From: Sandarakinorhabdus sp. AAP62
Lineage (GTDB): Bacteria > Pseudomonadota > Alphaproteobacteria > Sphingomonadales > Sphingomonadaceae
Direction of reading: 5' to 3'
DNA length: 64,000 nt
NCBI RefSeq assembly: GCF_000331225.1
Contig: NZ_ANFY01000007.1
Span: 434,001 to 498,000 of the forward strand
A program made the translations under genes and the position numbers. The stretch's first letter is position 1. Each line of letters begins with the position of its first letter. The notes under the pieces were generated by a model that saw nothing but the letters and a program-made list of their open reading frames with translations, did no database searches and was not told where the DNA came from. Positions 31,711-45,484 of this stretch are shown here, in pieces.

Positions 31711-31794
31711 GGTGCAGTTCCTTTGGTTGGCTCCGGGGGATCCGGATGCCGTCCAAATGAACCCGCCGATCTTTTATGATAATCGGGCAAACAC

Positions 31795-31821
31795 GGAAGA
31801 TACTGTTCCATTTCGCGAAAT
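31795..31821 (-). promoter_or_regulatory. LysR-type box a, facing the outer-membrane protein gene
   Basis: Read on the minus strand: ATTTCG-CGAAA-TGGAAC followed by AGTATCTTCC. This is the degenerate member of the six-site family (T-N11-A core in a TTCCG-N5-CGGAA dyad plus a TTCC-type half-site). It lies about 85 bases upstream of ATG 31710 and overlaps a perfect 16-base palindrome CCATTTCGCGAAATGG. Confidence 0.55.
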
Positions 31822-31838
31822 GGTGGGGACGACGCTCC

Positions 31839-31866
31839 GTTCCGCCTGCCGGAACAATCCATTTCG
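31839..31866 (+). promoter_or_regulatory. LysR-type box b, facing the YHS/bufferin operon
   Basis: GTTCCG-CCTGC-CGGAAC is a perfect 6-base-arm dyad with a T-N11-A core, followed directly by AATCCATTTCG. The part CGGAACAATCCATTTC is identical to that in box c. It ends about 130 bases before the YHS start codon at 31997. Confidence 0.65.
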
Positions 31867-31996
31867 AATTTCGGCCATTAATCCGTCGGGCATCAAGGCC
31901 TAGTTGTTGGGGGTGCCGGACGAGCTGGCACCCACAGACCAACGGCTCGCCACTCTTCCCGATCCCCTCACGGCGAACCCCAAAGGAGACAATGAC

Positions 31997-32497
31997 ATGA
32001 ACACGAGGACCATCCTGACCGCACTGGCCGCCATCGGCCTCAGCGTTGGCGCCATGAGCGCCGCCACCTCGCCGGCTTTCGCCCTGGTGCCCACCTCCGC
32101 TTCCGCGGTGAACACAGATACCGCCGGCATCGCCGTCCATGGTTATGACGTGGTGGCCTATTTCACCGAAGGCAAGCCGCGCGTCGGCAATGCCAGCCAC
32201 ACCACCACCTATGAAGGCGCACGTTACCAGTTCGCCAGCGCCGCCAATCTGAAGGCCTTCCAGGCCAATCCCGCCGCCTATGCGCCGGGCTTCGGCGGCT
32301 TCTGCGCCATGGGCGTGGCGCTGGAAAAGAAGCTCGATGGCGATCCCAAGGTCTGGAAGATCGTCGACGGCAAGCTCTACCTCAACGTCAACAAGGAGGT
32401 TTCGGTCGCCTGGCAGCGCGACATCCCCGGCAACCTGGTGAAGGCCAACGAAAACTGGCCGGCGATCAAGGACAAGGCCCCGGAGGCGCTGAACTGA
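31997..32497 (+). CDS. YHS-domain-containing exported protein
   Basis: A 166-residue protein with a signal peptide (ILTALAAIGLSVGAMSAATSPAFA) and a YHS-like domain: GIAVHGYDVVAYFTEGKP, YEGARYQFASAANLKAFQANPAAYAP, then GGFCAMGVA with its single cysteine. YHS-type domains often bind metals. AGGAG lies 8 bases upstream of ATG 31997. It is the first gene after LysR-type box b and is followed, after a strong hairpin, by the bufferin precursor gene. A periplasmic metal-related role alongside the bufferin is an inference. Confidence 0.85.
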   Translation: MNTRTILTALAAIGLSVGAMSAATSPAFALVPTSASAVNTDTAGIAVHGYDVVAYFTEGKPRVGNASHTTTYEGARYQFASAANLKAFQANPAAYAPGFGGFCAMGVALEKKLDGDPKVWKIVDGKLYLNVNKEVSVAWQRDIPGNLVKANENWPAIKDKAPEALN

Positions 32498-32531
32498 GGC
32501 GCTGAACTGATCGCCAACTGACCTCTCCCCC

Positions 32532-32557
32532 TGGCGGCCGGCGCAAGCCGGCCGCCA
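32532..32557 (+). promoter_or_regulatory. Strong GNRA-capped hairpin upstream of bufA1
   Basis: TGGCGGCCGGC-GCAA-GCCGGCCGCCA is a perfect 11-bp stem with a GCAA tetraloop, 17 bases before the bufA1 start codon and between it and the YHS stop. It lacks a U-tract. It may shield the 5' end of a processed bufA1 mRNA, raising expression of the small precursor relative to the YHS gene, or partly terminate. Confidence 0.55.
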
Positions 32558-32574
32558 CCCCCAAGGAAAATCCG

Positions 32575-32874
32575 ATGGATATCTCCCGTTCCGCCTTCCT
32601 GGCCGGCGCGCTGGCCACAGCGGTAACTGGCCTTGCCACCACCGCTGCCGCTGCCGACAAGCCCGCCCGCGAAAAATGCTTTGGCGTGTCGCTGGCAGGC
32701 TACAATGATTGCGCCGCCGGGCCCGGCACGTCCTGCTCCGGCACGTCCAAGGTCGATTACCAGGGCAACGCCTGGAAACTGGTGCCGGCCGGCACCTGCA
32801 CCACCATGGTGTCGAAGACCTCCCCCACCGGTCACGGTCAGCTGGCGGCCTATACCCACGCCAAGCGCCGCTGA
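32575..32874 (+). CDS. bufA1: Bufferin precursor (DUF2282, BufA1 type)
   Basis: A 99-residue precursor. Residues 1-27 are a Sec-type signal peptide ([20 protein letters not shown]). The mature part contains the DUF2282 core with four cysteines: Cys35 (REKCFGV), Cys46 ([10 protein letters not shown]), Cys54 (GTSCSGTS) and Cys75 (VPAGTCTTM), with the conserved [13 protein letters not shown]. Published work on bufferins describes them as Sec-exported RiPPs in which an MNIO enzyme turns cysteines into thiooxazoles that bind copper; which cysteines react here is inferred. Unusually, about 20 residues rich in His, Lys and Thr follow the last cysteine. The modification enzyme gene starts 4 bases after the stop. 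Confidence 0.88.
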
Positions 32875-32878
32875 TCCA

Positions 32879-33769
32879 ATGACGGCCGCCGCCTCTTCCC
32901 CGCTGCGTTTGCCGCCTGCGGCTGAATTGGGCCTGCCGCCGTCTGCGGGGCTCGGCCTGCACCGCGAACATCTCGATGAGGTGCTTGGCCGTGCAGGCCG
33001 GCTCGGCTTCATCGAGATTCACGCCGAAAATTTCATGAGCGAAGGCGGCCCGACGCTGGCCCTGCTCGACCAGCTGGCGAGCCAATATCCGATCTCCCTG
33101 CACGGCGTCGCGCTGTCGCTGGGCGGTGAGGAACCGCTGGACCCGGCGCATCTGCAGCGCCTGCGCCGCATCATCGATCGCACCCGGCCCGCCAGTTTTT
33201 CCGAACATCTGGCTTGGGCCAGCCACGACGGCATCTATTTCAACGATCTGCTGCCGATCGCCTATGACGCGACGACATTGTCGCGCGTCGCCGATCATGT
33301 CGATGAAGCGCAATCGGCGCTGGGCATGCGGCTGCTGCTCGAAAACCCGTCCACCTATGTCAGCCACGCGGCAAGCGACTGGGATGAAATCGATTTCCTG
33401 GCAGAGATCGCCCGCCGCACAGGCTGCGGCCTGCTGCTCGACATCAACAATGCCGTCGTTTCATCGGTCAATCACGGCTGGGACCCGCAGGCCTATCTGC
33501 AGCGTTTCCCACTGGCGCTGGTCGGCGAGATCCATCTTGCTGGCCACAGTGAAACCCGCGACGACGCCGGGCAACGCCTGCTGATCGACAGCCATGGCGA
33601 AGCCATCGCCGAGCCAGTGTGGTTGCATTATGCCGACGTGATCGCCCGCGCCGGCCCGCTGCCGACCCTGATCGAGCGCGACAACGACATTCCCGCCTTT
33701 GCCGTAGTCGCCGCCGAAGTGGCGCAGGCCGCCGCCATTCTTGCCCGCCACGCCAGAAAGGCCGCGTGA
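32879..33769 (+). CDS. bufB: MNIO (DUF692) bufferin-modifying enzyme
   Basis: A 296-residue TIM-barrel member of the multinuclear non-heme iron oxidative enzymes. Metal-site segments in order: GFIEIHAENFM, ISLHGVALSLG, SFSEHLAW, LLLENPSTYV, GLLLDINNAVVSSVNHGWDP, EIHLAGH and DSHGEAI. With its DUF2063 partner it should oxidise cysteines of the adjacent precursor using iron and oxygen in the cytoplasm before export. No ribosome site is visible, and the start lies 4 bases after the precursor stop, so it is translationally coupled. The next gene overlaps (TGATG). Confidence 0.9.
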   Translation: MTAAASSPLRLPPAAELGLPPSAGLGLHREHLDEVLGRAGRLGFIEIHAENFMSEGGPTLALLDQLASQYPISLHGVALSLGGEEPLDPAHLQRLRRIIDRTRPASFSEHLAWASHDGIYFNDLLPIAYDATTLSRVADHVDEAQSALGMRLLLENPSTYVSHAASDWDEIDFLAEIARRTGCGLLLDINNAVVSSVNHGWDPQAYLQRFPLALVGEIHLAGHSETRDDAGQRLLIDSHGEAIAEPVWLHYADVIARAGPLPTLIERDNDIPAFAVVAAEVAQAAAILARHARKAA

Positions 33770-34512
33770 TGACGCCGCTGAAATCCTTTTCCATCGCCGT
33801 GCGCACCCCCGATGGCGTGCAGCCGATGTTCGTCAGCGCCGCAGGCGGCCGTTTCACCATCTACCAGCGCAACCATGTCGCCAGCCTCACCGCCGCGTTG
33901 GCCAAGACCTTCCCGGTGGTCCAGCGCCTGGTGGGGGAGCCCTTCTTTGCCGCGATGGCCGCGCGCTTCATTTTCCAGTCGCCGCCGCGTGTCCCCATGC
34001 TGGCCGACTATGGCGCCGATCTGGCCGATTTCATCGCCGCCTTCGAACCGGCGGAGAGCCTGCCGTTCCTGGCCGATGTCGCGCGGCTGGAATATGCCCG
34101 CGTGCGCGCCTGGCACGCCGCCGATCACGCATCGCCGCCACTGGACGGTGCCGACGCCGTGGCCGCGCTGCTGCCGCACCGTATTGTGCTGCACCCATCC
34201 GCCACCCTGATCCAGTCCGATCATCCTGTGCTGGCGATCTGGGCGGCCAACCAGCCGGAAACGGCAGTGCCGGTGGAAGACTGGCAACCGGAAACTGCGC
34301 TGGTGCACCGCTCCGGCGATGTCGTGCTGAACACGCCAATCGATGCCGACACAAACACGTTTCTGGCGGCGCTGCTGACCGCCGAAAGCCTTGAATCCGC
34401 ACTGCTCGCCCTGCCCGACCCTGACACCGCCGGCGCTGCCCTGCTGCACGTCCTGCAGCTTCTGCAGGCTGGCGCATTGATCACAACTTGCCACGAAGGA
34501 ACCCTGCCATGA
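33769..34512 (+). CDS. bufC: DUF2063 partner protein of the MNIO enzyme
   Basis: A 247-residue protein of the DUF2063 family, N-terminal domain near residues 1-100 (VSAAGGRFTIYQRNHVASLTAALAKTFPVVQRLVGEPFF, given here in part: IYQRN, FPVVQRLVGE, AARFIF). Partner proteins of this family recruit the precursor to DUF692 enzymes. Start ATG 33769 overlaps the enzyme stop and has GAAAGG upstream. The C-terminal half (LADYGADLADFIAAF, YARVRAWHAADH, then a beta-rich part) is as in other bufferin clusters. Its stop overlaps the DoxX start (ATGA). Confidence 0.86.
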   Translation: MTPLKSFSIAVRTPDGVQPMFVSAAGGRFTIYQRNHVASLTAALAKTFPVVQRLVGEPFFAAMAARFIFQSPPRVPMLADYGADLADFIAAFEPAESLPFLADVARLEYARVRAWHAADHASPPLDGADAVAALLPHRIVLHPSATLIQSDHPVLAIWAANQPETAVPVEDWQPETALVHRSGDVVLNTPIDADTNTFLAALLTAESLESALLALPDPDTAGAALLHVLQLLQAGALITTCHEGTLP

Positions 34513-34955
34513 CCACCGCTCCCGCTCTCTTCCGCACCCTGCCCACACTGCTGGACCGCGTGCCATCCAGCCTGGCGCAACTTGTGTTGCGCTTCGGTCT
34601 CGCCGGCATCTTCTGGTCATCGGGCCGTACCAAGATCGAAGGGCTGCTGACCATTTCAGACGACACCTATTTCCTGTTCGAAGAAGAATATCAGCTGCCG
34701 TTGCTGTCCGCCCAACTGGCGGCGCAGCTTGGCACTTATGCCGAACATCTGTTCCCGATCCTGCTGGTGGTCGGCCTTGCCACCCGCCTGTCAGCACTGG
34801 CGCTGTTCGGAATGACGCTGGTCATCCAGATCTTTGTCTATCCCGATGCGCTGTTCGCCACCCATCTCGGCTGGTTCGCGCTGGCGCTGGCGGTGGCGAC
34901 AGGCGGGCCGGGCACGTTGTCGCTGGATCACCTGCTGTTCCGCAAGCGGGACTAA
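34509..34955 (+). CDS. DoxX family membrane protein of the bufferin operon
   Basis: A 148-residue inner-membrane protein with about four hydrophobic helices (LVLRFGLAGIFW, AEHLFPILLVVGLA, LALFGMTLVIQIFVY, WFALALAVATGG). The order DUF2282, DUF692, DUF2063, DoxX is the standard bufferin operon. The function of the DoxX member is not settled; it may handle electrons or thiol redox state at the membrane. Start 34509 has AAGGAA 8 bases upstream. The stop overlaps the convergent LysR gene by four bases, so read-through antisense is possible. Confidence 0.88.
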   Translation: MTTAPALFRTLPTLLDRVPSSLAQLVLRFGLAGIFWSSGRTKIEGLLTISDDTYFLFEEEYQLPLLSAQLAAQLGTYAEHLFPILLVVGLATRLSALALFGMTLVIQIFVYPDALFATHLGWFALALAVATGGPGTLSLDHLLFRKRD

Positions 34956-35848
34956 TTGATGTGCCGATCGGCGCGCAGCCGTTCGACGACGAGATCGACA
35001 AAGGCCCGCACCTTGGCCGACGCCCGCCGGCCTTCCGGGTGGACGACGTGGACGGGCAGGGGCTCGAGCTCGTAATCCGACAGCACGGTCTGCAAGGAAC
35101 CCGATTCAAGCTGGGCGGCAATCTGGTACGACAAGGGCCGCGCCAGCCCCCAGCCTTGCGCGGCCGCCGCCACGATCGCTTCATAGGTGCTGCACGACAG
35201 CCGCGGCGTGACGGTCACGCCGATCTTCTCATCCTTGCCGAACCGCCAGTCCAGCGACGACCAGGAACCAGTCGAGGCAATGATGCGGTGGCCCGCCAGA
35301 TCGGCTGGGTGCTGCGGCACGCCGTGACGATCGAAATAGGCCGGCGATCCGCACACCACCCGGCGCACCGTGCCAACTCTGATGGCACTGTAGCTTGAAT
35401 CGGGCAGATGGCCGATGCGGATGGCCACATCGATGCCTTCATCGACGATGTTGACGACCCGATCGACAAAGATGGCGCGGCCGCTCACCTGCGGATTGGC
35501 ATCCAGAAACTCGCGCAGGATCGGCATGATGTAATTGTTGCCGAACAACACCGACGCGGTGACGCTGAGCGTGCCGGTGGGCGTGGTGTAGGAACCCGAT
35601 GCGGCGGCTTCGGCTTCGGCAATGTCGGCCAGGATGCGGCGGCAATCCTCGAAATAGCGTGCGCCCGGCTCGGTCAGCTTCACGGTGCGGGTGGTGCGGG
35701 TCAGAAGCCGGCTGCCGATCAGTTCCTCCAGGCTGGCCACCGCGCGGGTGACGGCGGGCGGGCTCATGTTCAGCTGGCGCGCGGCCTCGGCAAAGCCGCC
35801 GGTTTCGGCGACGCGCACAAACACCTGCATGGCGTGCAATCGTGACAT
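34952..35848 (-). CDS. LysR-family transcriptional regulator
   Basis: A 298-residue LysR regulator with an N-terminal winged HTH (MQVFVRVAETGGFAEAARQLNMSPPAVTRAVASLEE at about 7-42, in part VTRAVASLEE) and a substrate-binding domain of the CrgA/AaeR-like clade (FLDANPQVSG, GIDVAIRIG, AAAQGWGLARPL). Six T-N11-A boxes of one sequence type lie around it, including one 6 bases upstream of its own start codon, consistent with autoregulation. It is convergent with the bufferin operon. I infer that it controls that operon and the surrounding detoxification genes; the ligand is unknown. Confidence 0.88.
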   Translation of the reverse strand: MSRLHAMQVFVRVAETGGFAEAARQLNMSPPAVTRAVASLEELIGSRLLTRTTRTVKLTEPGARYFEDCRRILADIAEAEAAASGSYTTPTGTLSVTASVLFGNNYIMPILREFLDANPQVSGRAIFVDRVVNIVDEGIDVAIRIGHLPDSSYSAIRVGTVRRVVCGSPAYFDRHGVPQHPADLAGHRIIASTGSWSSLDWRFGKDEKIGVTVTPRLSCSTYEAIVAAAAQGWGLARPLSYQIAAQLESGSLQTVLSDYELEPLPVHVVHPEGRRASAKVRAFVDLVVERLRADRHIN

Positions 35849-35853
35849 TGTTC

Positions 35854-35881
35854 ATTCCCCCAAACGGAACAATCCATTTCC
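35854..35881 (+). promoter_or_regulatory. LysR-type box c, between lysR and the glutathione S-transferase gene
   Basis: ATTCCC-CCAAA-CGGAAC followed by AATCCATTTCC. It starts only 6 bases upstream of the lysR ATG (35848), so it overlaps that gene's leader; its orientation matches transcription toward 36245. Further right, CGCAATTCTGCCGC nearly repeats the CGCCATTCTGCCGC found at the same offset beyond box d, which extends the conserved element to about 50 bases. Confidence 0.65.
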
Positions 35882-35928
35882 GATTATCGCAATTCTGCCG
35901 CCTGGCAAATGAAATTACCAAGTGGGCC

Positions 35929-36135
35929 ATGATCCACGCCCTCACCCACCAGCTGCATAGCGATGGCGCCCCTGCCTCCCTCCACCGGGTCTGGCAGCTG
36001 GCGACCCACATTCAGGCCATCATCATCACCGCTGCCGCCGGCGGCTCGGTTTCCACTGCGATTCCGCCGCTGGCGGCGCTGGCCATCAACGTTGTCCGCC
36101 ATCGCGGGCCGGGATCATTCCACATAACGCAATAG
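35929..36135 (+). CDS. Possible small protein of unknown function
   Basis: A 68-codon open frame with high third-position GC, starting [10 protein letters not shown] and containing a hydrophobic stretch ([22 protein letters not shown], in part [10 protein letters not shown]). It has no ribosome site and no recognisable family. It would be the first gene downstream of LysR-type box c. It may equally be chance open frame in GC-rich DNA. Confidence 0.25.
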
Positions 36136-36244
36136 TCACTTGTCGCGTTCGAAGCTTCTGCCCGCCGGGCTTTCCCCCCACTCTTCTCCCCGTTCGGCAC
36201 GCCCCACTGAAGCTGAACCAATCCCTCGCAAAGGACCCATGATC

Positions 36245-36862
36245 ATGAAGCTCCACTACCACCCGCTTTCCGGCCACGCCCACCGCGCCCGGCTGTTCCT
36301 GTCGCTGATCGGTGCCGATTTCGAACTGGTCGAAGTCGACCTGGCCAAGGGTGCCCACAAGGCGCCGGCCTTCCTCGCCCTCAACCGCTTCGGCCAGGTA
36401 CCGGTGCTGGAAGATGATGGCGTGATCATCGCCGATGCCAACGCCATCCTGATCTATCTCGCCAAGAAGTTCGGCAAGAGTGATTGGCTGCCGGCCGATC
36501 CCGTTGGCGGTGCTGCCGTGCAACGCTGGCTTTCGGTTGCCGCCGGCCAGATCGCCTTTGGTCCGGCCGCGGCCCGCCTGATCACCGTGTTCGGCGCCGG
36601 CTTCAACGCCGACGAAGTCATCGCCCGCGCCCATGCCATCCTGAAGATCCTGGAAGCCGAACTCGTGAGCCGCGACTGGATCGCCGCCAGCCACCCGACC
36701 ATCGCCGATGTCGCGCTCTACAGCTACATCGCGCGCGCGCCGGAAGGCAATGTCAGCCTCGATGCCTATCCGGCCGTGCAGGGCTGGCTGAAGCGCATCG
36801 AAGCGCTGCCGGGCTTCGTGCCCTTCGTCAGCACACCGGTTGGCCTGTCGGCCGCCGCCTGA
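36245..36862 (+). CDS. Glutathione S-transferase
   Basis: A 205-residue cytosolic GST. The N-terminal thioredoxin-like domain starts [18 protein letters not shown], with [11 protein letters not shown] (the cis-proline loop) and the glutathione-contact segment [13 protein letters not shown]. The C-terminal helical domain has [13 protein letters not shown], the conserved N-capping-box region. It conjugates glutathione to electrophiles or reduces peroxides. ATG 36245 is preferred to 36239 because GGA lies 9 bases upstream. It precedes the reductase fusion gene, separated by a hairpin. Confidence 0.87.
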
Positions 36863-36871
36863 ACCCCCATC

Positions 36872-36900
36872 CCCCGGGGCTGGCCATGCCGGCCCCGGGG
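36872..36900 (+). promoter_or_regulatory. Intercistronic hairpin upstream of the reductase fusion gene
   Basis: CCCCGGGGCTGGC-CAT-GCCGGCCCCGGGG: 13-bp stem with one G-U pair and a 3-base loop, between the transferase stop (36862) and ATG 36922. No U-tract. Resembles in position and strength the hairpins before bufA1 and before the gene at 40437. Confidence 0.5.
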
Positions 36901-36921
36901 CTCTGCTGAAAGGCGCGCGTG

Positions 36922-38985
36922 ATGGCCGGCCATGGTTCGATCGAAATGCCCTCCCCCTGGCACGCCGGCGAAATCACGCTCCAGCAAGGCCTGGGCGTTG
37001 CCGAACGCATGGCGATTGCCGGCCAGAAGGTCATCCGCGATCACATGCCCGATCAGCACCGCACCTTCTTCGCGCAGCTGCCGTTCCTGGTCGCCGGCGC
37101 CGTCGATGCGGCCGGTGATGTCTGGGCCACGCTGCTCACCGGCGCGCCGGGCTTTGCACAGTCACCCGATCCGCGCACCCTGGCCTTCGCGCTGCCACGC
37201 GACGCCGCCGATCCGGCCAACGCTGGCCTGAATAATGGCGATGCCATCGGCCTGCTCGGCATCGAACTGCACAGCCGCCGCCGCAACCGCATGAACGGCC
37301 ATGTGCGCCGCACGGGCGAAGCCGGCTTTGCCGTCCATGTCGAACATAGTTTCGGCAATTGCCCGCAATATATCCAGCTGCGCGACTGGCAGATGCTCGA
37401 TCAGCCCGCCACGGCGCCGGGCATGGTGGAGCGGCAGGATCATCTCGACGCCGCCGCGCGCGCCATGATTGCCGCGGCCGATACCTTCTTCGTCGCCTCC
37501 TATCTGGATGGCGACGCCGGCCGCCAGGTTGATGCCTCGCATCGCGGCGGCAAGCCCGGCTTCGTGCGCATCGATGCCGATGGCGCGCTCACCATTCCGG
37601 ATTTCGCCGGCAATCTGCACTTCAACACGCTGGGCAATTTCCTGCTCAATCCGCGCGCCGGGCTGACCTTCGTTGATTTCGCCAGCGGCGACCTGCTCCA
37701 AATGACCGGCGAAGCCGAGGTGATCCTTCAATCCCCCGAAATCGCCGCCTTCCAGGGCGCCGAGCGGCTGTGGCGCTTCCGGCCGCGCATCGTCGTGCGT
37801 CGCCCGGCGGCGCTGCCGCTGCGCTGGACGTTCCGCGACTGGTCGGCCAATTCGTTGATGACCGGTTCCTGGGAAGACGCGGCGTCGCGGCTGCAGGCGC
37901 AGGCGCTGGCAACGCAGTGGCGGCCGTTTCGCGTCGCCCGCATTGTCGAGGAAAGCGCGGTGATCCGCTCCTTCCACCTCGAACCCGCCGATGGCGCCGG
38001 CATCACCCCGCACCGCGCCGGCCAGCATCTGCCCATCCGCCTTGCCATAGCGGGCGAAGCCAGGCCCGTCATACGCACCTACACGCTGTCAACCGCGCCG
38101 TCCGACGGCGGTTATCGCATCAGTGTGCGACGGCAGGGCCTGGCTTCGGCATTTCTGCACGACCAGATTGGCGTTGGGGATCTGATCGAGGCGCGCGCGC
38201 CTGCCGGCGATTTCACCATTGATGCCGCCGAACGCCGGCCCGCCGTGCTGATCGGTGCCGGGGTCGGGGTGACGCCGATGCTCGCGATGCTGCGTCACGT
38301 GGTTTATGAAGGGCTGCGCACGCGGCGGGTGCGGCCCACTATGTTCATCCAGGCGGCGCGCACCCGCAGCGAACGTGGCTTCGATGCGGAAATTGCCGAA
38401 CTGGTGGCGCGCGCCGAAGGCAAGGTGCGACTGGTCCGCACGCTCGATGACACGACCGACGGCGCGCAGGCCGGGGTGGATTATGACGTCGCCGGCCGGG
38501 TCGACATGGCGCTGCTGCGCCAGCTGCTCGGCTTTGACGATCATGATTTCTACCTGTGCGGCCCACCGCCGTTCATGCAGGCGCTGTATGACGGGCTGCG
38601 CGATCTCAACATCGCCGATGGCCGCATCCATGCCGAAGCCTTTGGCCCGGCCTCCATGCGCCGCCGTGTCGATGCCGCTGCCGCGCCCGCCGCCCAGCCT
38701 TCGGCAACCCCGGTGCCCGTGGCCTTCGCCGCCTCGGCCAAGGAAGCGCGCTGGGCTCCGGGCAGCGGCAGCCTGCTCGATCTGGCCGAAGCCCGCGGCC
38801 TGGCACCGGAATATAGCTGCCGTGGCGGCAGTTGCGGCACCTGTCGCACCCGCATCATCGCCGGCGCCGTGGCCTATGAAACCCCACCATCGGCCAGCGT
38901 TGGCGCCGATGAAGCCCTGATCTGCTGCGCCATGCCGGCGGACAGCGCCAGCGGTGGCAGCGACCGCCTGATCCTCGATCTCTGA
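36922..38985 (+). CDS. Fusion: PNPOx-like split barrel - FNR-type reductase - [2Fe-2S] ferredoxin
   Basis: 687 residues. Residues about 40-300 are a pyridoxamine-phosphate-oxidase-like FMN split barrel (FFVASYLDGDAG, GGKPGFVRI, NTLGNFLLNPRAGLTFVDF). Residues about 330-450 form an FAD-binding FNR domain (IRTYTLSTAPSDGGYRISVR). Residues about 430-560 form the NAD(P) domain (LIGAGVGVTPMLAML, FYLCGPPPFM). The C-terminus is a plant-type ferredoxin with Cys633, Cys638, Cys641 and Cys668/669 (YSCRGGSCGTC). One chain can thus move electrons from NAD(P)H through FAD and Fe-S, perhaps to an FMN-bound acceptor. ATG 36922 has AAAGG 8 bases upstream. Likely detoxifies electrophiles, quinones or nitro compounds; the substrate is unknown. 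Confidence 0.87.
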   Translation: MAGHGSIEMPSPWHAGEITLQQGLGVAERMAIAGQKVIRDHMPDQHRTFFAQLPFLVAGAVDAAGDVWATLLTGAPGFAQSPDPRTLAFALPRDAADPANAGLNNGDAIGLLGIELHSRRRNRMNGHVRRTGEAGFAVHVEHSFGNCPQYIQLRDWQMLDQPATAPGMVERQDHLDAAARAMIAAADTFFVASYLDGDAGRQVDASHRGGKPGFVRIDADGALTIPDFAGNLHFNTLGNFLLNPRAGLTFVDFASGDLLQMTGEAEVILQSPEIAAFQGAERLWRFRPRIVVRRPAALPLRWTFRDWSANSLMTGSWEDAASRLQAQALATQWRPFRVARIVEESAVIRSFHLEPADGAGITPHRAGQHLPIRLAIAGEARPVIRTYTLSTAPSDGGYRISVRRQGLASAFLHDQIGVGDLIEARAPAGDFTIDAAERRPAVLIGAGVGVTPMLAMLRHVVYEGLRTRRVRPTMFIQAARTRSERGFDAEIAELVARAEGKVRLVRTLDDTTDGAQAGVDYDVAGRVDMALLRQLLGFDDHDFYLCGPPPFMQALYDGLRDLNIADGRIHAEAFGPASMRRRVDAAAAPAAQPSATPVPVAFAASAKEARWAPGSGSLLDLAEARGLAPEYSCRGGSCGTCRTRIIAGAVAYETPPSASVGADEALICCAMPADSASGGSDRLILDL

Positions 38986-38996
38986 AAGACCTTCCG

Positions 38997-39629
38997 ATGA
39001 CCAAACGTGTCTTGCTGCTCCTCGCCGACGGGTTCGAACCGATGGAGGCCGCCGGTTTCACCGACGTGCTGGGCTGGGCCAATATCGATGGCGACGAACC
39101 GATCGAACTGGTGTCGGCCGGCCTGCGCTCGCCGTTGAAGGCGACATTCGGCTTTTCGGTCATCCCTGATGCGCTGGTCACCGATCTTGATCTCGACAGT
39201 TTCGATGCGCTGGCGGTGCCGGGCGGCTTTGGCAGCGCCGGCTTCTACACCGATGCCCTGTCCGAACCGTTCCTCGCCGTCATCCGCCACTTTGCCGGGC
39301 GCCAGCAGGCGGTGGCATCGGTGTGCGTCGCCGCGCTGGCGCTGGGCGCAGCCGGCGTGCTCGAAGGCCGCGTTGCCACCACCTATCATCAGGCCGGCGG
39401 CAAGCGCCGCGCCCAGCTCGAATCCCATGGCGCCCACTTCATCGATGAAGCCGTGGTGGTGGATGGCAATCTGATCAGCTCCACCGGGCCGGGCACCGCG
39501 GTCGAGGTCGCCTTCACCCTGCTCGCCGACCTGACCTCGGAACGCAACAGCGCGCGCATCCGCGATCTGATGCGGGTGCCATGGCCGGCGCCGTCGTGGT
39601 GGACGAGCCCGCAGGTGCCGCCAACATGA
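38997..39629 (+). CDS. DJ-1/PfpI family protein, copy 1
   Basis: A 210-residue DJ-1/ThiJ-type protein: LLLADGFEPMEAAGF with the conserved glutamate (Glu17), DALAVPGGFGSAGF, and the nucleophile elbow VASVCVAAL with Cys110. Members act as glyoxalases, deglycases, isonitrile hydratases or redox-sensing chaperones; which applies is unclear. It begins 12 bases after the reductase fusion stop and overlaps the next gene (ATGA), so it belongs to that operon. A paralogue with about 60 percent identity lies at 42353-42976 on the other strand. Confidence 0.86.
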   Translation: MTKRVLLLLADGFEPMEAAGFTDVLGWANIDGDEPIELVSAGLRSPLKATFGFSVIPDALVTDLDLDSFDALAVPGGFGSAGFYTDALSEPFLAVIRHFAGRQQAVASVCVAALALGAAGVLEGRVATTYHQAGGKRRAQLESHGAHFIDEAVVVDGNLISSTGPGTAVEVAFTLLADLTSERNSARIRDLMRVPWPAPSWWTSPQVPPT

Positions 39630-40207
39630 GCCCGACCGATGTTGCCTTCACGCCGGCGGTCAAGGCCGTGCAGGCGCGCAAGGGTTCGCGCGCCATCTAT
39701 GCCGGCATGGAAATGGCGTGCGCCATCGACGAAGACCTGGCCGCCTTCATCGCCGCGCGCGACAGTTTCTACCTCGCCAGCGCCAGCGCCGATGGCCAGC
39801 CCTATATCCAGCATCGCGGCGGCCCCAAGGGCTTCCTGCACGTGATCGACGAACACACGCTGGGCTTCGCCGATCTGCGCGGCAATCGCCAATATGTCTC
39901 CACTGGGAATTTCGCCGAAAACCCCAAGGCCTTCATTTTCGTGATGGATTATGCCCGGCGGCAGCGCGTCAAGATCTGGGGCACGCTGCGGGTGGTGGAG
40001 GATGATCCGGCGCTGATCGCTTCGCTGCTGCCGGCCGGCGCAAAGCTGCGGGCGGAATCAGCCATGCTGTTCACCGTCACCGCCTGGGATCCGAACTGCC
40101 CGGCCCACATCCCGCAGCTGTTCCCCGCCGCCGATGTGGCCGCTGCGCTGGCCGCGAAAGACGCCCGCATCGCAGCGCTCGAAGCCGAACTGGCCGCACG
40201 CCGCTGA
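39626..40207 (+). CDS. Pyridoxamine 5'-phosphate oxidase-related FMN-binding protein
   Basis: A 193-residue split-barrel flavoprotein: FYLASASADGQPYIQHRGGPKGFLHV (in part GQPYIQHRGG), then GNRQYVSTGNFAENPKAFIFVMDY and RVKIWGTLRVVED. The C-terminus is a short helix rich in Ala and Glu. These proteins usually bind FMN, F420 or heme and reduce small oxidants. The start overlaps the DJ-1 stop by four bases. Related to the N-terminal domain of the fusion protein two genes upstream, so the operon carries two split-barrel proteins. Confidence 0.85.
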   Translation: MSPTDVAFTPAVKAVQARKGSRAIYAGMEMACAIDEDLAAFIAARDSFYLASASADGQPYIQHRGGPKGFLHVIDEHTLGFADLRGNRQYVSTGNFAENPKAFIFVMDYARRQRVKIWGTLRVVEDDPALIASLLPAGAKLRAESAMLFTVTAWDPNCPAHIPQLFPAADVAAALAAKDARIAALEAELAARR

Positions 40208-40234
40208 ATTCCGCAAAATGGAATAATATATTCC
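40208..40234 (+). promoter_or_regulatory. LysR-type box d, facing the operon at 40437-42321
   Basis: ATTCCG-CAAAA-TGGAAT followed by AATATATTCC, beginning immediately after the TGA of the preceding gene. Beyond it, CGCCATTCTGCCGC repeats the sequence found at the same offset after box c. It marks a new promoter for the five genes that follow. Confidence 0.65.
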
Positions 40235-40385
40235 GTTTTTCCGCCATTCTGCCGCAGCCCGCGCCGGTGCATAGCCACTTCATCGGGCCCGCCGCGGTGG
40301 TGGGCCCCAAACACCAACAGCCTGAACGAGGTTCCGGGCACCATGATCGGCTTCCCCGGGCCCATCATGCACTGCCGGACGTCGT

Positions 40386-40420
40386 GGCGGGCGGGGCGAC
40401 CCTCCATAGCCCCGCCCGCC
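40386..40420 (+). promoter_or_regulatory. Hairpin in the leader of the 40437 operon
   Basis: GGCGGGCGGGGC and GCCCCGCCCGCC form a perfect 12-bp stem with an 11-base loop, ending 8 bases before the ribosome site of the next gene. Without a U-tract it is more likely an mRNA 5' stabiliser or attenuator than a simple terminator. Confidence 0.5.
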
Positions 40421-40436
40421 CTTCACCTGGAGACAC

Positions 40437-40904
40437 ATGATGACCCGCCCGCCTCTGCCCCCCTTCACGCTCGCCAGTGCCGCCGAAAAGGTCCGGCTGG
40501 CCGAAGATGGCTGGAACAGCCGCGATCCCGCACGTGTCGCGCTGGCCTACACGCCGGATTGCAGCTGGCGCAACCGCGCCGAATTCGTCACGGGCCGCGC
40601 CGAGATCGAGGCCCTGCTCACCCGCAAATGGGCGCGCGAGCTGGATTACCGCCTGATCAAGCAACTCTGGGCCCACGATGGCAATCGCATCGCGGTGCGC
40701 TTTGCCTATGAATATCACGACGACAGCGGGCAATGGTTCCGCGCTTACGGCAACGAGAATTGGGAGTTCGACGGCGATGGCCTGATGCGACGCCGCATCG
40801 CCAGCATCAATGAACACCCGATCAGTGCCGCGGATCGCAAGTTCCACTGGCCGCTGGGTCGCCGCCCCGATGATCATCCGGGCCTGAGCGACTTCGGCTT
40901 CTGA
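40437..40904 (+). CDS. SnoaL/NTF2-like protein, DUF1348 type
   Basis: A 155-residue cone-shaped NTF2-fold protein: [25 protein letters not shown] (in part [15 protein letters not shown]), [39 protein letters not shown] and the terminal [14 protein letters not shown] typical of DUF1348. The pocket can bind small hydrophobic molecules, but no reaction is assigned. ATG 40437 or 40440 is the start; GGAG at 40429-40432 slightly favours the second. First gene downstream of LysR-type box d. Confidence 0.83.
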
Positions 40905-40929
40905 CGCCCCTTTCTGCCGGAGACTCCCC

Positions 40930-41154
40930 ATGAAGATGCGTTCAACCTGTCTGGCCGACGACAAGCCCTGGCTGCTGCGTTATGCGCTCGCCTTTGCCGC
41001 CATCCTTGGCTTTGGCGGCTTTGCCTTCAGCCTTGGTGATGGCGTCGCGGCCTTCCGGCTTCAGGCTGTCTTCTTCGTTCTGCTGTTCAGCGCCATCCTG
41101 CTGCCGCTGTTGGAAATCTGGTGGCGGGATTGCCCGACCAGGCTGCACCGGTGA
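40930..41154 (+). CDS. Small two-helix membrane protein
   Basis: A 74-residue protein with two predicted membrane helices (LRYALAFAAILGFGGFAF and LQAVFFVLLFSAILLPLL) and a charged C-terminus ending in WWRDCPTRLHR. GGAG lies 7 bases before the ATG. I do not recognise the family. It sits between the NTF2-like and the carboxymuconolactone-decarboxylase-like genes in the box d operon, so it is probably co-regulated with them. Confidence 0.68.
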   Translation: MKMRSTCLADDKPWLLRYALAFAAILGFGGFAFSLGDGVAAFRLQAVFFVLLFSAILLPLLEIWWRDCPTRLHR

Positions 41155-41159
41155 CCGAA

Positions 41160-41507
41160 ATGCCCACGCCAATCCTGCTGGATGATCGCATCCGTATCCA
41201 GGTCGAACTGGCGCTGACCAGTGCGGCTGGCTGTGCCCAGGTGCGGGCGACGCAGGAATGCACGGCTCGCGCCGCCGGGCTTTCAGGCGCCGAGATTGAT
41301 GCCGCGCGCGGCCGCCGCTGCTTTGACCGGCGCGCCCAGGCCGCCGTGGCGCTGGCCTGCACCCTGGGCTCGGCACTCACGCCGATCAAGGAGCTGCTCG
41401 CCTCGCCGTTCGCCGCCAAGGCGCGCCGCGATGGCCTTGCCGACGATGAGATCGAAGCCATCCACGCCATGGCCGCCCTGGCCTGCACCGCAACGGAGAT
41501 CCCATGA
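41160..41507 (+). CDS. Carboxymuconolactone decarboxylase (AhpD)-like protein, degenerate active site
   Basis: A 115-residue all-helical protein resembling the CMD/AhpD fold: DRIRIQVELALTSAAGC, then CTARAAGLSGAEIDAARG and a helix AQAAVALACTLGS. The usual CxxC-x3-H motif is not present: the cysteines here are separated by eight residues and the histidine is missing. A thiol peroxidase activity is therefore doubtful. The ATG is five bases after the preceding stop, and the end overlaps the next small frame. Confidence 0.65.
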   Translation: MPTPILLDDRIRIQVELALTSAAGCAQVRATQECTARAAGLSGAEIDAARGRRCFDRRAQAAVALACTLGSALTPIKELLASPFAAKARRDGLADDEIEAIHAMAALACTATEIP

Positions 41508-41680
41508 TGACCATCGCTCCGCTCACCACGCTTGCTGCCCGCCTGCTGGCACCGCGGCGGGCGCCGGCTGCGCCCTGCCCGCCGCAGGACGCTGGCCCGA
41601 CCGACGATTGGGCGGCATCGGTGCTGCAATCCATCCGCTGCGAACTGCCGCTGATGGAATCGATCATGCGGATGATGTGA
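41504..41680 (+). CDS. Small unknown protein, 58 codons
   Basis: A 58-residue frame (starts MMTIAPLTTLAARLL, ends MESIMRMM) overlapping the previous stop codon by ATGA, with codon use like its neighbours. The middle is rich in Ala and Pro, with two cysteines. No family is recognised. Coupling to the preceding gene and a short gap to the transferase gene make it plausible as a real product of the box d operon. Confidence 0.45.
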   Translation: MMTIAPLTTLAARLLAPRRAPAAPCPPQDAGPTDDWAASVLQSIRCELPLMESIMRMM

Positions 41681-41706
41681 TCCCCGCCTCACCAAAGGAA
41701 CATGCC

Positions 41707-42321
41707 ATGATCGAAGTCTTCACCGCCAACACCCCCAATGGCATCAAGGTGCCGATCGCGCTGGAGGAACTGGGCGTTCCCTAAACGATCCGGAAAATGG
41801 CCCTGGGTTCGCCCGATCTGCGTTCGGCCGATTATCTGCAGATCAATCCCAACGCCCGGATCCCGGCCATCCGGCACCATGATGGCGGGAACCAGCCTGT
41901 CACCATCTTCGAATCCGGTGCGGTCCTGCTCTATCTCGCCCAGACCTATGGCGGCCTGCTGGGCACCACGCCGGCGGCGCGCGGGCAAACACTCAGCTGG
42001 CTGTTTCTGCAAGTGGCGGGGCTGGGGCCGATGATGGGCAACGCCGGGCATTTCCGGTCGCTGCCGTCGCCTGATCCTTACGCCCTTGGTCGCTTCGTTG
42101 GTGAGGCTGGCCGTTATCTCGGGCTGGTCGAAGCGCGCTTGCACGAAGCGGACTGGCTCAATGGCGAATCCTACTCGATTGCCGACATCGCGCATTTCTC
42201 GTGGATCCGCAGTGCCGGTTATGCGGGCTTTGACCTCAAGGATTTTCCCGCCTTGCGCGCCTGGGTCGATCGGATCGCCCAGCGCCCCGCCACCGTGCGT
42301 GGGCTGCAGAGCCTCGCCTGA
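41707..42321 (+). pseudogene. Glutathione S-transferase gene with in-frame TAA at codon 26
   Basis: The reading frame starts MIEVFTANTPNGIKVPIALEELGVP and then meets TAA at 41782-41784. The family has a tyrosine there (GLPY), so a single-base change from TAC or TAT explains it. After the stop the same frame continues intact for 179 codons: INPNARIPAI, FESGAVLLYLAQ, ADWLNGESYSIADIAHFSW and AQRPATVRGL. Re-initiation at ATG 41797 would lack the first strand and glutathione-contact residues. It is either a recent pseudogene, a sequencing error or a truncated product. Last gene of the box d operon. Confidence 0.8.
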
Positions 42322-42352
42322 GCCGGCACCCGGGTGCTGCCAGAGCGGCCGT

Positions 42353-42976
42353 TCACACCTGCGCGCCGTGAAACCAGGCGGGATCAGGGGTCGGCACGCG
42401 CATGCGCAGGCGCAGCTCCTGCGCAAACGCCGGTGAAGACAGGCGTTCCAGAAGCTTCAAGGCCAGTTCGATGCCGGTGCCTGGCCCGGTTGATGTCATC
42501 AGATGGCCGTCAATGACCAGCGGCTCGTCCACGAAAATGGCGCCATAGCCTTCCAGCTCGGCCTTCCGCGTGCCGCCGATCTGATGATAGACGGTTGCGC
42601 GCTTGCCGCTGAGCACGCCGGCCGCGCCGAGCGACAAGCCACTCACGCAGACCGCCGCAATCGGCGCCTGCCGCTTGTCGAAATTCCGGATGATCTCGAG
42701 GAAGGGTTCGGACAGCGCCTCTTCATAGAAGCCGGCATCACCAAAGCCGCCCGGAATGACCAGGGCGTCGAAATCCTCGGCCTGAATGTCACCCAACAGC
42801 GCTTCGGGGATCACGTCGAACCCGAAGGTGGACCTGACCGGGCTGCGTAGCCCGACCGAAAGCTGGTCAAAACGAACATCGCCGTAGATCGAGGCCCAGC
42901 CGAAGACCTCGGTGAAACAGCCCGCCTCCATGACTTCAAAGCCATTGGACAGCAGGATCAGCACCAGCTTTTGCAT
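42353..42976 (-). CDS. DJ-1/PfpI family protein, copy 2
   Basis: 207 residues, paralogous to the protein at 38997: LILLSNGFEVMEAGCF, DALVIPGGFGDAGFYEEALSEPF, and nucleophile Cys110 in IAAVCVSGL. The conserved glutamate is in VMEAG. ATG 42976 is chosen because the DJ-1 strand starts directly after it; upstream in-frame codons encode no domain. The gene converges on the interrupted transferase gene. No LysR-type box was found upstream, so its regulation may differ from copy 1. Confidence 0.85.
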   Translation of the reverse strand: MQKLVLILLSNGFEVMEAGCFTEVFGWASIYGDVRFDQLSVGLRSPVRSTFGFDVIPEALLGDIQAEDFDALVIPGGFGDAGFYEEALSEPFLEIIRNFDKRQAPIAAVCVSGLSLGAAGVLSGKRATVYHQIGGTRKAELEGYGAIFVDEPLVIDGHLMTSTGPGTGIELALKLLERLSSPAFAQELRLRMRVPTPDPAWFHGAQV

Positions 42977-43148
42977 CAGCACCCCCACTGACAGACACGA
43001 ACGTCTGCCCCCCTGCGCTGATGTCAAGCTACAACCAAAACATGACAGTTGGCCAATGCCACCGGACAGCGCACGATTCCGATCTGGTCGTGAAGCTGCC
43101 AACCGATCATTTGCGGGGCGTACGTCACCCCCGGCCCTTGCCGGCCTG

Positions 43149-43730
43149 CTACTTCGCGGCGTCGAAGGTGCCAGCCTTCACCGCGACAGGCTTCGCCGTG
43201 GGATAGAACTGCACGAAGGTCGTATCGACGGCACCACTGGCCTTGTGACAGGAATAGCACTCTGCATCGCCGGGGATCATTTGTGCGGGCTGGCCGTCGC
43301 TGTGGACGAAGAAGGCCCATCCATCCTTGAAGCGCTTGGAATCCTTCACGTGAACTTCAAGGCCAAACACCTCCTCGGTCTGGAACGTGCCCCCCTTGCT
43401 GATCGAACCCTCGTGCGCACCCATGCGCGGTTCCTTGATCAACATGGTGCCTTCGGGCCACTTGCCGGTTTTCTTGAACGCCTGCCACGAAACCGGGTCC
43501 ACGAAGACATTATCGACCATATCATGGTTCATTCCGCTGGCCTGCTCGCTGTAGGTCATGTTCACGCCCGACGTCAGGAAGACCCATTCGCGATAGTCTT
43601 TCGGGAAGATCAGATCGCCTGATGCCGTGTATCGTGCCGCGGCTTCCGGCAATGAATTCGTATAGGCAGCTGCCCCGAAACCGGCGACGATCAGAGTAGC
43701 CGCGCCAATGAGAATTGGGCCATATTTCAT
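43149..43730 (-). CDS. Cytochrome P460 family c-type heme protein
   Basis: A 193-residue exported protein. The N-terminal hydrophobic signal is ILIGAATLIVAGFGAAAY. The P460 domain has FPKDYREWVFLTSGVNMTY, ending with the heme-binding CYSCH (158-162) followed by GAVDTTFVQFYPT. Family members oxidise hydroxylamine and NO or act as peroxide- or stress-linked periplasmic cytochromes. AGGAAAA precedes ATG 43730. LysR-type box e lies upstream in the correct orientation, and the gene is divergent from the disulfide oxidoreductase gene. Confidence 0.86.
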   Translation of the reverse strand: MKYGPILIGAATLIVAGFGAAAYTNSLPEAAARYTASGDLIFPKDYREWVFLTSGVNMTYSEQASGMNHDMVDNVFVDPVSWQAFKKTGKWPEGTMLIKEPRMGAHEGSISKGGTFQTEEVFGLEVHVKDSKRFKDGWAFFVHSDGQPAQMIPGDAECYSCHKASGAVDTTFVQFYPTAKPVAVKAGTFDAAK

Positions 43731-43871
43731 GGTATTTTCCTGATTGTTGTTCGACAATGATCGATCTTCTAGCGATCTGTTTGAATCTGATTGCTTCACG
43801 CCTTGATCTTCTTGTCCAAGACCAGGATCGTGGATTAATTGTTGCGGCAAATCCGGTAAATAAGCGTATTT

Positions 43872-43899
43872 GGAAATGGTGAATTCCGTTTTCCGGAAT
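43872..43899 (-). promoter_or_regulatory. LysR-type box e, facing the cytochrome P460 gene
   Basis: On the minus strand: ATTCCG-GAAAA-CGGAAT, a perfect 6-base-arm dyad with T-N11-A core, followed by TCACCATTTCC. It lies about 140 bases upstream of ATG 43730. Confidence 0.65.
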
Positions 43900-43937
43900 A
43901 GTAGCCGTCCACCCGGGAGGGGAGTTTGGCGTCTATT

Positions 43938-43964
43938 ATTCCGATTTCCGGCACAGAGTGTTTC
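43938..43964 (+). promoter_or_regulatory. LysR-type box f, facing the disulfide oxidoreductase gene
   Basis: ATTCCG-ATTTC-CGGCAC followed by AGAGTGTTTC. One mismatch in the second arm compared with the family, but the order and spacing of all blocks are kept. It ends 71 bases before ATG 44036. Confidence 0.5.
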
Positions 43965-44035
43965 ATCTTTGTGCGATTGTTGATATTTTCCTGAAGGCCT
44001 AGTTCTCGCCCATCAACTGATCGAGCGAGAGTGTC

Positions 44036-45484
44036 ATGCCACAGACCAGGTCCATCAAAGCCGACGTCGTCATCATTGGTGCGGGTAGCGCGGGCATGTC
44101 CGCCTACAAATCGGCACGCCAATTCACGGACTCGATCCTGGTGATCGAGGAGGGGCATTACGGGACGACCTGTGCCCGCGTTGGCTGCATGCCGTCGAAG
44201 TTGCTGATCGCGGCGGCCGAAGCGGCGCATCACGTCCAGCACGCGGGCCGGTTCGGCATCAAGGTCGCGCAGCCAGAAGTCGACGGCAAGGCCGTGATGG
44301 CCCGGCTTCGCGCCGAGCGCGACCGGTTCGTCGGCTTCGTTGTGGAGGACGTCGAAGGCTGGCCAGAGGCGCACAAGATCCGGGGTTCGGCGCGCTTCGT
44401 TGCGCCTGGCCGTCTGATTCTGGACGATGGAACCGAAATCGAAGCCGGGCGCGTGGTGATTGCGACCGGCTCGCGCTCGGTCTGGCCGTCGGCGTGGAAT
44501 GCGCTGGGGGATCGGCTCATCATCAACGACGACGTGTTTTATTGGGATGATCTGCCATCATCCGTCGCGGTCTTTGGCAATGGCGTCATCGGGCTGGAAC
44601 TTGCCCAGGCGCTCCACCGGTTGGGCGTGCGGGTCAAGCTGTTCGGGCGGAGCGGCCGCGTTGGTCCGCTGACGGACCCTGATGTCGCGGCGGCGGCGCT
44701 TGCTGCCTACGCCGCGGAGTATCGCTTCTCGCCTGCAGCGCAGGTTGCTGCTGTCGAGCGCCAGGGAGACCAAGTGGTCGTGGCCGAACGCATTGATGGC
44801 CAGGACGTGGAGGAACGCTTCGACTATCTGATCGCCGCCACCGGCCGCCAGCCCAACCTCGATCGGCTCGGTCTGGAACATGCCGGCATAAAGCTAGACG
44901 AGCGCGGCACCCCGGTGGGCTGGGATCGTCGCACCGCCCGGATCGGCGAGAGCCGCATCTTCCTGGCCGGCGATGCCGCGCCCGATGCGCCGCTGCTGCA
45001 TGAAGCGTCGGATGCCGGGCGGATCGCCGGGGAGAATGCCGCACGCTTTCCCGACGTGGCGCCCCGCCATCGCCGCACGCCAATCGGCGTTGTCTTTTCC
45101 GACCCGCAGATCGCCATGGTCGGGCAAAGCCACGCCCAGCTGACCAAGGCCGGGGCACGATTCATCACGGGCACGGTCGATTTCACCGGGCAAGGTCGCG
45201 CCCGGGTGGCGGGGCGCAACATCGGAAAGCTCGCACTCTATGCGCACCCCGAAACCGGAAAATTCCTCGGAGCAGAAATGGCCGGCCCTGCCGCTGAACA
45301 TATTGCACATTTGCTGGCCTGGGCGATCGAAGCAGATCGTTCAGTCCAGCAGATGCTCGACAGCCCGTTCTATCACCCGGTCATCGAGGAAGGGGTTCGC
45401 ACCGCGCTGCGGGCAGCGCGCGATGCGATGCACGAAAAGTCCCCGGCCCATCGCCCTTGTCTCGACTGCCGAGCAGCGGCCTGA
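44036..45484 (+). CDS. FAD-dependent pyridine nucleotide-disulfide oxidoreductase (dihydrolipoyl dehydrogenase-like)
   Basis: A 482-residue class I flavoprotein disulfide reductase. FAD motif VVIIGAGSAGMSA (11-23), redox-active Cys46 and Cys51 (TTCARVGCMPSK), second nucleotide motif VAVFGNGVIGLELAQALHRLG (in part GNGVIGLELAQ), and the FAD-phosphate segment IFLAGDAAPDAP. The C-terminal dimer domain ends with HPVIEEGVRTALR, holding the catalytic His-Glu pair. The extended C-terminus adds a CLDC pair. It is not linked to oxo-acid dehydrogenase genes, so a role in stress defence (RclA-like or thiol/metal reduction) is more likely than lipoamide turnover. Box f precedes it. Confidence 0.85.
   Translation: MPQTRSIKADVVIIGAGSAGMSAYKSARQFTDSILVIEEGHYGTTCARVGCMPSKLLIAAAEAAHHVQHAGRFGIKVAQPEVDGKAVMARLRAERDRFVGFVVEDVEGWPEAHKIRGSARFVAPGRLILDDGTEIEAGRVVIATGSRSVWPSAWNALGDRLIINDDVFYWDDLPSSVAVFGNGVIGLELAQALHRLGVRVKLFGRSGRVGPLTDPDVAAAALAAYAAEYRFSPAAQVAAVERQGDQVVVAERIDGQDVEERFDYLIAATGRQPNLDRLGLEHAGIKLDERGTPVGWDRRTARIGESRIFLAGDAAPDAPLLHEASDAGRIAGENAARFPDVAPRHRRTPIGVVFSDPQIAMVGQSHAQLTKAGARFITGTVDFTGQGRARVAGRNIGKLALYAHPETGKFLGAEMAGPAAEHIAHLLAWAIEADRSVQQMLDSPFYHPVIEEGVRTALRAARDAMHEKSPAHRPCLDCRAAA

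Follow-up and report, generated by a model that had tools for sequence, protein, structure and literature searches.

In the LysR-type systems of GcvA, MetR, OxyR, IlvY, CynR and LysR, PMC5002191 places a first inverted repeat at -63 to -66 and a second one at -41 to -44, and in PMC6422896 the CrgA protein of Neisseria is cited as binding a T-N11-A sequence in the crgA/mdaB promoter region. As to the bufferins, PMC12452194 gives the composition of the Buf1 operon and reports that genes for sigma factors and NrsF accompany Buf1 clusters. Here we analyse a stretch of 64,000 nucleotides of Sandarakinorhabdus sp. AAP62 (positions 434,001 to 498,000 of contig NZ_ANFY01000007.1; the window, hereafter), which holds a bufferin operon, several genes of putative detoxification enzymes and a gene for a LysR-type regulator (lysR, 34952..35848, minus strand), and in which a sequence-only reading had pointed out six matching boxes. 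We found seven such sites (S1 to S7) in a 12-kb cluster; very probably, to judge from their sequence, they are operators of the LysR encoded at 34952-35848 and form a local regulon. The earlier proposal of a regulon under the neighbouring lysR is supported in that the motif is confined to the cluster in its own genome and goes with the orthologues of this LysR in the genomes of the family.

The six boxes had been placed correctly in both coordinates and strand, and they are real and above chance. The arms TTCCG-N5-CGGAA, which they were said to have in common, are exact in S2 and S5 only and do not hold for the other four; TTCC-N7-GGAA is exact in S2 to S5 (four of the six) and imperfect in S1 and S6. 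The aligned sites start with CATTTCGCGAAATGGAACAGTATCTTCC (S1), CGTTCCGCCTGCCGGAACAATCCATTTC (S2), CATTCCCCCAAACGGAACAATCCATTTC (S3), AATTCCGCAAAATGGAATAATATATTCC (S4), TATTCCGGAAAACGGAATTCACCATTTC (S5) and TATTCCGATTTCCGGCACAGAGTGTTTC (S6), and S2 and S3 share the identical stretch GGAACAATCCATTTC. The conserved element is longer than the box first described, spanning about 41-44 bp and extending into the -35 region. As predicted operator/promoters, S1 (31779..31822, minus strand; -35 at 31782, -10 at about 31759) faces an outer-membrane protein gene, S2 (31838..31881, plus strand; -10 at about 31901) the YHS-bufferin operon, S4 (40207..40250, plus strand; -10 at about 40270), the strongest site, the operon of an NTF2-like protein, S5 (43857..43900, minus strand; -10 at about 43837) a cytochrome P460 gene and S6 (43937..43980, plus strand; -10 at about 44000), the weakest site, a disulfide reductase gene. 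S3 (35853..35896, plus strand; -10 at about 35916), whose palindrome lies 7-21 bp upstream of the lysR start, points away from lysR and toward a 68-aa open reading frame (ORF) and a glutathione S-transferase (GST) gene. S7 (36116..36159, plus strand, with the matrix match at 36118-36159; -35 at 36156, -10 at about 36179) was absent from the original six and ranks fourth of the seven by score; 80 bp separate its end from the ATG of that GST gene (GST1) at 36239. None of the seven sites overlaps any of the genes listed, under which list the intergenic share of 31108-45484 is 13.7%; the 68-aa ORF, which was not in the list used for this count, overlaps S7 with its end.

The motif was learned from relatives only. 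We fetched 45 relatives of the lysR gene and used their lysR upstream regions, with the window excluded; 33 of the 45 loci entered a de novo expectation-maximisation (EM) search, after leaving out L056-L060 (LysR below 42% identity), the near-identical L039, L053 and L054, and four loci by a 75% identity filter. At a width of 41, the search disclosed in 18 of these 33 regions a motif that is the reverse complement of ATTATTCC-N7-GGAATA-N-T-N3-TTnC, and a palindrome-seeded scan of the relatives led to the same places. The operator appeared at width 41 only, widths 19 and 29 yielding the lysR start-codon region instead; the shuffled control was for width 29 only. The motif of a first EM run was discarded, as it was coding sequence of the divergent GST gene and not the operator. 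Fifteen of the 18 lysR-promoter sites (all but L049, L051 and L055), extended to the -35 region, made up a position weight matrix (PWM). The seven sites are its top seven positions in the 64-kb window, with scores of 45.0 (S4), 39.9 (S3), 35.0 (S2), 31.0 (S7), 29.8 (S1), 27.1 (S5) and 19.4 (S6), and the next position scores 10.9. Maxima in ten dinucleotide-Markov sequences of 64 kb ranged from 7.5 to 16.6, so that S6 is narrowly above them, and the maximum in 400 kb of the own genome (20 chosen stretches) was 12.3.

A calibrated model of the sequence alone, built from the same 15 sites for genome-wide searches, gave seven matches at E≤10 in the 3.13-Mb own genome. All of them were in the 12-kb cluster: S4, S3, S2, S7, S1, S5 (E=0.119) and once more S5, read partially and in reverse (E=2). 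The sequence-only reading had itself named, as the result that could overturn it, a motif no rarer in coding DNA than ahead of genes; this relatives-only search found nothing outside the cluster at the same cut-off. When the consensus of that reading was used as a pattern with up to three mismatches, nine own-genome matches were obtained, whereas the reversed control gave 0 and 0; five of the matches needed no more than two mismatches, and these were all within the cluster. S5 differs from this consensus by one mismatch, and S1 was missed at up to three. The three 3-mismatch matches outside the cluster lie in long open frames and have PWM scores of -14.5, -0.6 and 11.2. A looser exact pattern was unspecific in 199 genomes of the family (own genome and G097 excluded), with 12 matches versus 10 in the reversed control.

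All seven sites of the window present one layout: an inverted repeat centred at about -66, a half-site 22 bp after its first arm, TT at -35, a 17-bp spacer and A at -11. The register was read by taking this A as -11, the TT being the start of the -35 box. The alignment comprised 58 sites, namely the seven of the window and 51 of the 66 matches in relatives, and the remaining 15 matches (scores of at least 16) were counted separately. TT occupies columns 38-39 in 58 of 58 sites, columns that are inside the model and therefore partly selected. Column 62 (-11), which is outside the model, has A in 56 of the 58 sites and in 12 of the other 15 matches (68 of 73), the background of A in nearby columns being 18%. 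This A recurs ahead of different target genes; as the sites are related, a binomial figure for it overstates their independence. The predicted transcription starts are 31747 (S1), 31913 (S2), 35928 (S3), 36191 (S7), 40282 (S4), 43825 (S5) and 44012 (S6). In the register so inferred, a T-N11-A palindrome is found near -65 and a second site, which is a half-site only, near -43. Since this spacing matches that of the systems in PMC5002191, the sites resemble LysR-type activator operators, and the suggestion that each box combines a recognition with an activation site agrees with the operators described there.

The sites are kept in the relatives. S7 is the most widely kept of them: in 20 relative loci (these include L039, nearly identical to L038, and L032, whose score is only 16.5) a site starts 101-131 bp ahead of GST1, counted from the tblastn start of that gene, and in L052-L054 the distance is 155-156 bp. 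S1-type sites precede the relatives of the outer-membrane protein gene in L016, L018, L019, L021, L022 and L028; S2-type sites precede the YHS gene in L016, L019 and L029; S3-type sites lie within 6-11 bp of the lysR start in L016, L020, L023, L043, L045, L047 and L048; S4-type sites precede the NTF2 gene in seven relative loci; and a P460 site is present in L020. In the relatives, sites are also found before genes of the carboxymuconolactone-decarboxylase family and of alpha/beta hydrolases. GST1, the reductase fusion and NTF2 remain near LysR even where the latter is 43% identical. Divergent paired motif sites were observed at 4711/4749 of L018 and 4437/4472 of L021, ahead of unassigned genes.

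The motif is tied to this LysR lineage. In the genomes of 12 relatives, chosen among the 45, all 20 model matches at E≤0.1 belonged, by their contig coordinates, to the LysR loci and were no more than about 6 kb away from lysR; eight of the 20 were training sites and 12 were not, at most 150 first-look candidates having been scored per genome. Since all genome-wide matches in the own genome and in these 12 relatives, at the cut-offs used, are near lysR, the cluster offers a clean model for a LysR regulon travelling as a unit. Across the 199 family genomes, the motif (E≤0.01) was found in 10, all of them within the 31 that have a LysR at E≤1e-60. A close LysR (E≤1e-90, a cut-off set after inspection of the list) occurs in 11 of the 199; the motif was present in nine of these 11 versus one of the other 188 (Fisher p=4.9e-13). 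When four training genomes were dropped (G001, G003, G097 and G178, the last being the same genome as L028), the figures were five of seven versus one of 188 (p=5.6e-8), and four of six when the own genome was dropped as well (p=1.3e-6). In G127, the sole motif genome without a close LysR, 27 bp separate the site from a LysR that is 44% identical. This motif (G127:C1:2221692-2221732) hints that the operator code may extend further in this branch of LysR. The three other sampled members of the host genus have no LysR at E≤1e-60, and the lineage, which is uncharacterised, has members among sphingomonads, rhizobia and other Alphaproteobacteria. That the block was transferred as a whole by plasmid was rejected, because megablast matched 13 plasmid records, none of which covers 80% of the block (best coverage, 13%).

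Several results weigh against a LysR regulon of this extent. At E≤0.01, 21 of the 31 genomes that have a LysR at E≤1e-60 yielded no motif, G011 and G153 of the 11 closest LysR genomes being among them, although such absences are soft because at most 31 first-look candidates were scored per genome. L030, L031, L033 and L041, with LysR 62-66% identical, have no match of at least 16 in the available locus DNA, and no site of at least 16 accompanies the bufferin genes that lie near LysR in L020 and L052-L054. There is no site before P460 in L023 and L024, the equivalents of S6 are weak (10.9 in L018, 2.3 in L021, none in L028), and in the own genome the model did not pick up S6 itself at E≤10. A match in G057 (G057:C1:167932-167972) is far from the LysR of that genome, and is either chance or a remote regulon member. 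Lastly, among the LysR orthologues Cys166 occurs in 21 of 23 and no invariant cysteine pair was found, such a conserved regulatory pair being the mark of the OxyR/LsrB type of thiol switch; as Cys166 is absent from two orthologues, thiol sensing is not established.

The weakness of S5 and S6 leads to the view that only S1-S4 and S7 are operators, S5 and S6 being look-alikes and P460 and the disulfide reductase falling outside the regulon. The poor conservation of both in relatives, the E value of S5, the failure of the model with S6 and the narrow distance of the latter from the best Markov maximum speak for it; yet both sites outrank every other position of the window, both keep the TT of -35 and the A of -11 in register, and S5 is a single mismatch away from the consensus pattern. 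We judge this view somewhat unlikely, and regard as doubtful members of the regulon S5, a moderate site, and above all S6, a weak one. The G057 match, in turn, could mean that another regulator of the same stress island uses the motif as its operator and that the neighbouring LysR has a different site. That is very unlikely, considering that in many orthologues the site is a neighbour of lysR, that it accompanies LysR across the 199 genomes, that its form and spacing are typical of LysR-type operators, and that the window proteins scanned from 31.1 to 45.5 kb include no clear DNA-binding regulator other than LysR. The DUF2063 protein belongs to a family that Pfam titles 'putative DNA-binding domain', and just outside this interval a LuxR-type regulator is encoded: beside the disulfide reductase gene, 45665-47661 (minus strand) comprises a histidine kinase gene and that of the LuxR-type response regulator (45665-46360), and no strong PWM match lies ahead of the pair.

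If LysR is the regulator, it might still act mainly as a repressor that is released by its inducer, rather than as an activator; a Pseudomonas relative of CrgA is described in PMC6422896 as a repressor released by acyl-CoA. We consider this unlikely, for an inverted repeat at about -66, a second half-site still upstream of -35 and a -35 box as poor as this one (TT only) make up the layout of an activator. As for a mobile or chance repeat with no regulatory role, the stretch common to S2 and S3 speaks for it, but the position of the site is kept before orthologous genes in many genera, the copies are in promoter register, and at the cut-offs used the LysR locus was the only place where copies were found, both in the own genome and in the 12 relatives. 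Chance and repeat were rejected on the PWM ranking, the mismatch scan, the conservation and the confinement to LysR loci, and the probability left to this explanation is negligible.

The protein taken here as the regulator, and proposed as master of the regulon, has 298 aa and the N-terminal helix-turn-helix and substrate-binding domain of the LysR type (Pfam HTH_1, 8.3e-21; LysR_substrate, 6.3e-38). Its best PDB relatives are 3mz1 and 3hhg, the latter being Neisseria CrgA. The closest NCBIfam models, YafC (202.8 of 470 bits) and AaeR (143.5 of 425 bits), are both below cut-off, so that it belongs to neither equivalog, and its other matches in the own genome are at most 32% identical. We propose that a LysR tetramer would bind the palindrome ATTCC-N7-GGAAT centred at about -66 and would contact the second half-site, TTnC, 22 bp downstream. 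Inducer-bound LysR would then shift onto the -35 region and activate the promoter, in which TT marks the -35 box, A stands at -11 and the spacer is 17 bp long. Since S3 points away from lysR just before its start, it would act as an autoregulatory site, through which LysR would restrain lysR. The regulon would include the outer-membrane protein gene, the YHS-bufferin operon, the GST and flavin reductase genes, the NTF2-like operon, P460 and possibly the disulfide reductase. For this uncharacterised lineage, the result is a testable regulon with predicted operators, promoters and transcription starts.

The putative targets were identified by their Pfam families. The outer-membrane beta-barrel protein (OMP_b-brl) is encoded at 31108..31710 (minus strand). 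The bufferin operon (plus strand) begins with a YHS-domain protein (YHS, 31997..32497), followed by a DUF2282 bufferin precursor of the Buf1 type (32575..32874), an MNIO enzyme (MbnB_TglH_ChrH, the former DUF692; PF05114, 32879..33769), the DUF2063 partner protein (33769..34512) and a DoxX protein (34509..34955). Directly after the S3 promoter, the 68-aa ORF (35929..36135, plus strand) is a gene candidate that has no Pfam family and is 63% identical over 65 aa in L016, from which it differs at 21, 13 and 28 nucleotides by codon position; it starts at the predicted S3 transcription start, perhaps leaderless, and its stop is inside S7. Downstream on the same strand are GST1 (36239..36862), a PNPOx/FAD-NAD reductase/2Fe-2S fusion (36919..38985), a DJ-1/PfpI protein (38997..39629; NCBIfam below cut-off), a PNPOx-like flavoprotein (39626..40207; Pfam on 39614-40204) and the NTF2-like DUF1348 protein (40437..40904). 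The by-eye label CMD for a 128-aa ORF at 41121-41507 was dropped, Pfam giving no family. The second GST of the NTF2 operon (41707-42321, plus strand) has an in-frame stop after 25 codons, and relatives of its post-stop part are found in L018, L019, L021 and L022. A second DJ-1/PfpI gene lies between this GST and cytochrome P460 (43149..43730, minus strand). The flavin disulfide reductase (44036..45484, plus strand) is dihydrolipoyl-dehydrogenase-like, matching NCBIfam PRK06292 above cut-off as well as Pfam. To go by the gene families, the set points to a detoxification of electrophiles or oxidised compounds. A literature search for DUF1348 together with LysR found no paper. Of the earlier claim that electrophile/redox defence is connected with the bufferin operon under one regulator, the shared site stands by sequence, and the defence role is a reading of gene families only.

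The bufferin operon has the DUF2282 precursor, MNIO, DUF2063 and DoxX genes of a Buf1 operon; its peptide is probably a copper-binding ribosomally synthesised and post-translationally modified peptide (RiPP). In the window and in L016, L019 and L029 the YHS-bufferin operon is preceded by a site, which amounts to about three lineages because L016 is a near relative. We rejected the possibility that YHS genes are general carriers of the site: their relatives gave 44 matches in 27 of the 199 family genomes, and among 30 YHS loci of about 3.5 kb each, only two, those with BufA downstream, have a site of at least 20, the best of the other 28 being 16.1. The LysR site is a proposed regulatory input to a bufferin operon unlike the sigma-factor arrangement reported for Buf1 clusters. 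Neither 'LysR' nor 'YHS' is mentioned in the main text of PMC12452194; among the matches listed in a literature search, no LysR input to a bufferin operon was found, and the bufferin papers there have no mention of LysR or LTTR (LysR-type transcriptional regulators).

A LysR-type local regulon is of an already known kind, and the interest of this one lies in its conserved locality and in having a bufferin operon as a target. The tie between LysR and bufferin would link copper-binding RiPPs with redox detoxification. The inducer is most likely a reactive electrophile, a quinone or a chlorine-type oxidant. More tentatively, and with a good deal of doubt, we suggest that one LysR sensor of reactive electrophiles or chlorine-type oxidants might command both cytoplasmic detoxification and a periplasmic copper-binding RiPP through one local, widely conserved operator, oxidant stress and copper being met as one threat; it would have evolved independently as a counterpart of the rcl system for copper and hypochlorite.

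The likeness to rcl of E. coli (RclR/RclA; PMC7464077) lies in the flavin disulfide reductase, which is tied there to copper and hypochlorite. However, the rcl regulator is of the AraC type, and the reductase of the window, the weakest member of the regulon, fits dihydrolipoyl dehydrogenase far better than RclA. With the Buf1 operons as described in PMC12452194 our operon shares the same precursor and partner genes, and differs from them in that a YHS-domain gene comes first, preceded by a LysR-type site. CrgA of Neisseria (3HHG) and Pseudomonas (PMC6422896) and the YafC and AaeR models represent a related LysR subgroup by sequence, but the LysR of the window is outside the last two by their cut-offs and has different targets; among the matches listed for CrgA or LysR with quinone or electrophile, there was nothing on this LysR family. 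LsrB of Agrobacterium (PMC11975290) is likewise an alphaproteobacterial LysR-type protein and a redox regulator; according to that work it is unique to Rhizobiales and has an extensive regulon, whereas the one described here looks local. The closest parallel in operator form is with GcvA, MetR, OxyR, IlvY, CynR and LysR (PMC5002191), which have a 15-bp inverted repeat at about -65 and a second one about 22 bp downstream, several of these regulators being autoregulated from a divergent region, as we propose for S3. In contrast to them, the sequence is here ATTCC-N7-GGAAT, the second site is a half-site and not a clear repeat, and about six target units lie together in one 12-kb cluster.

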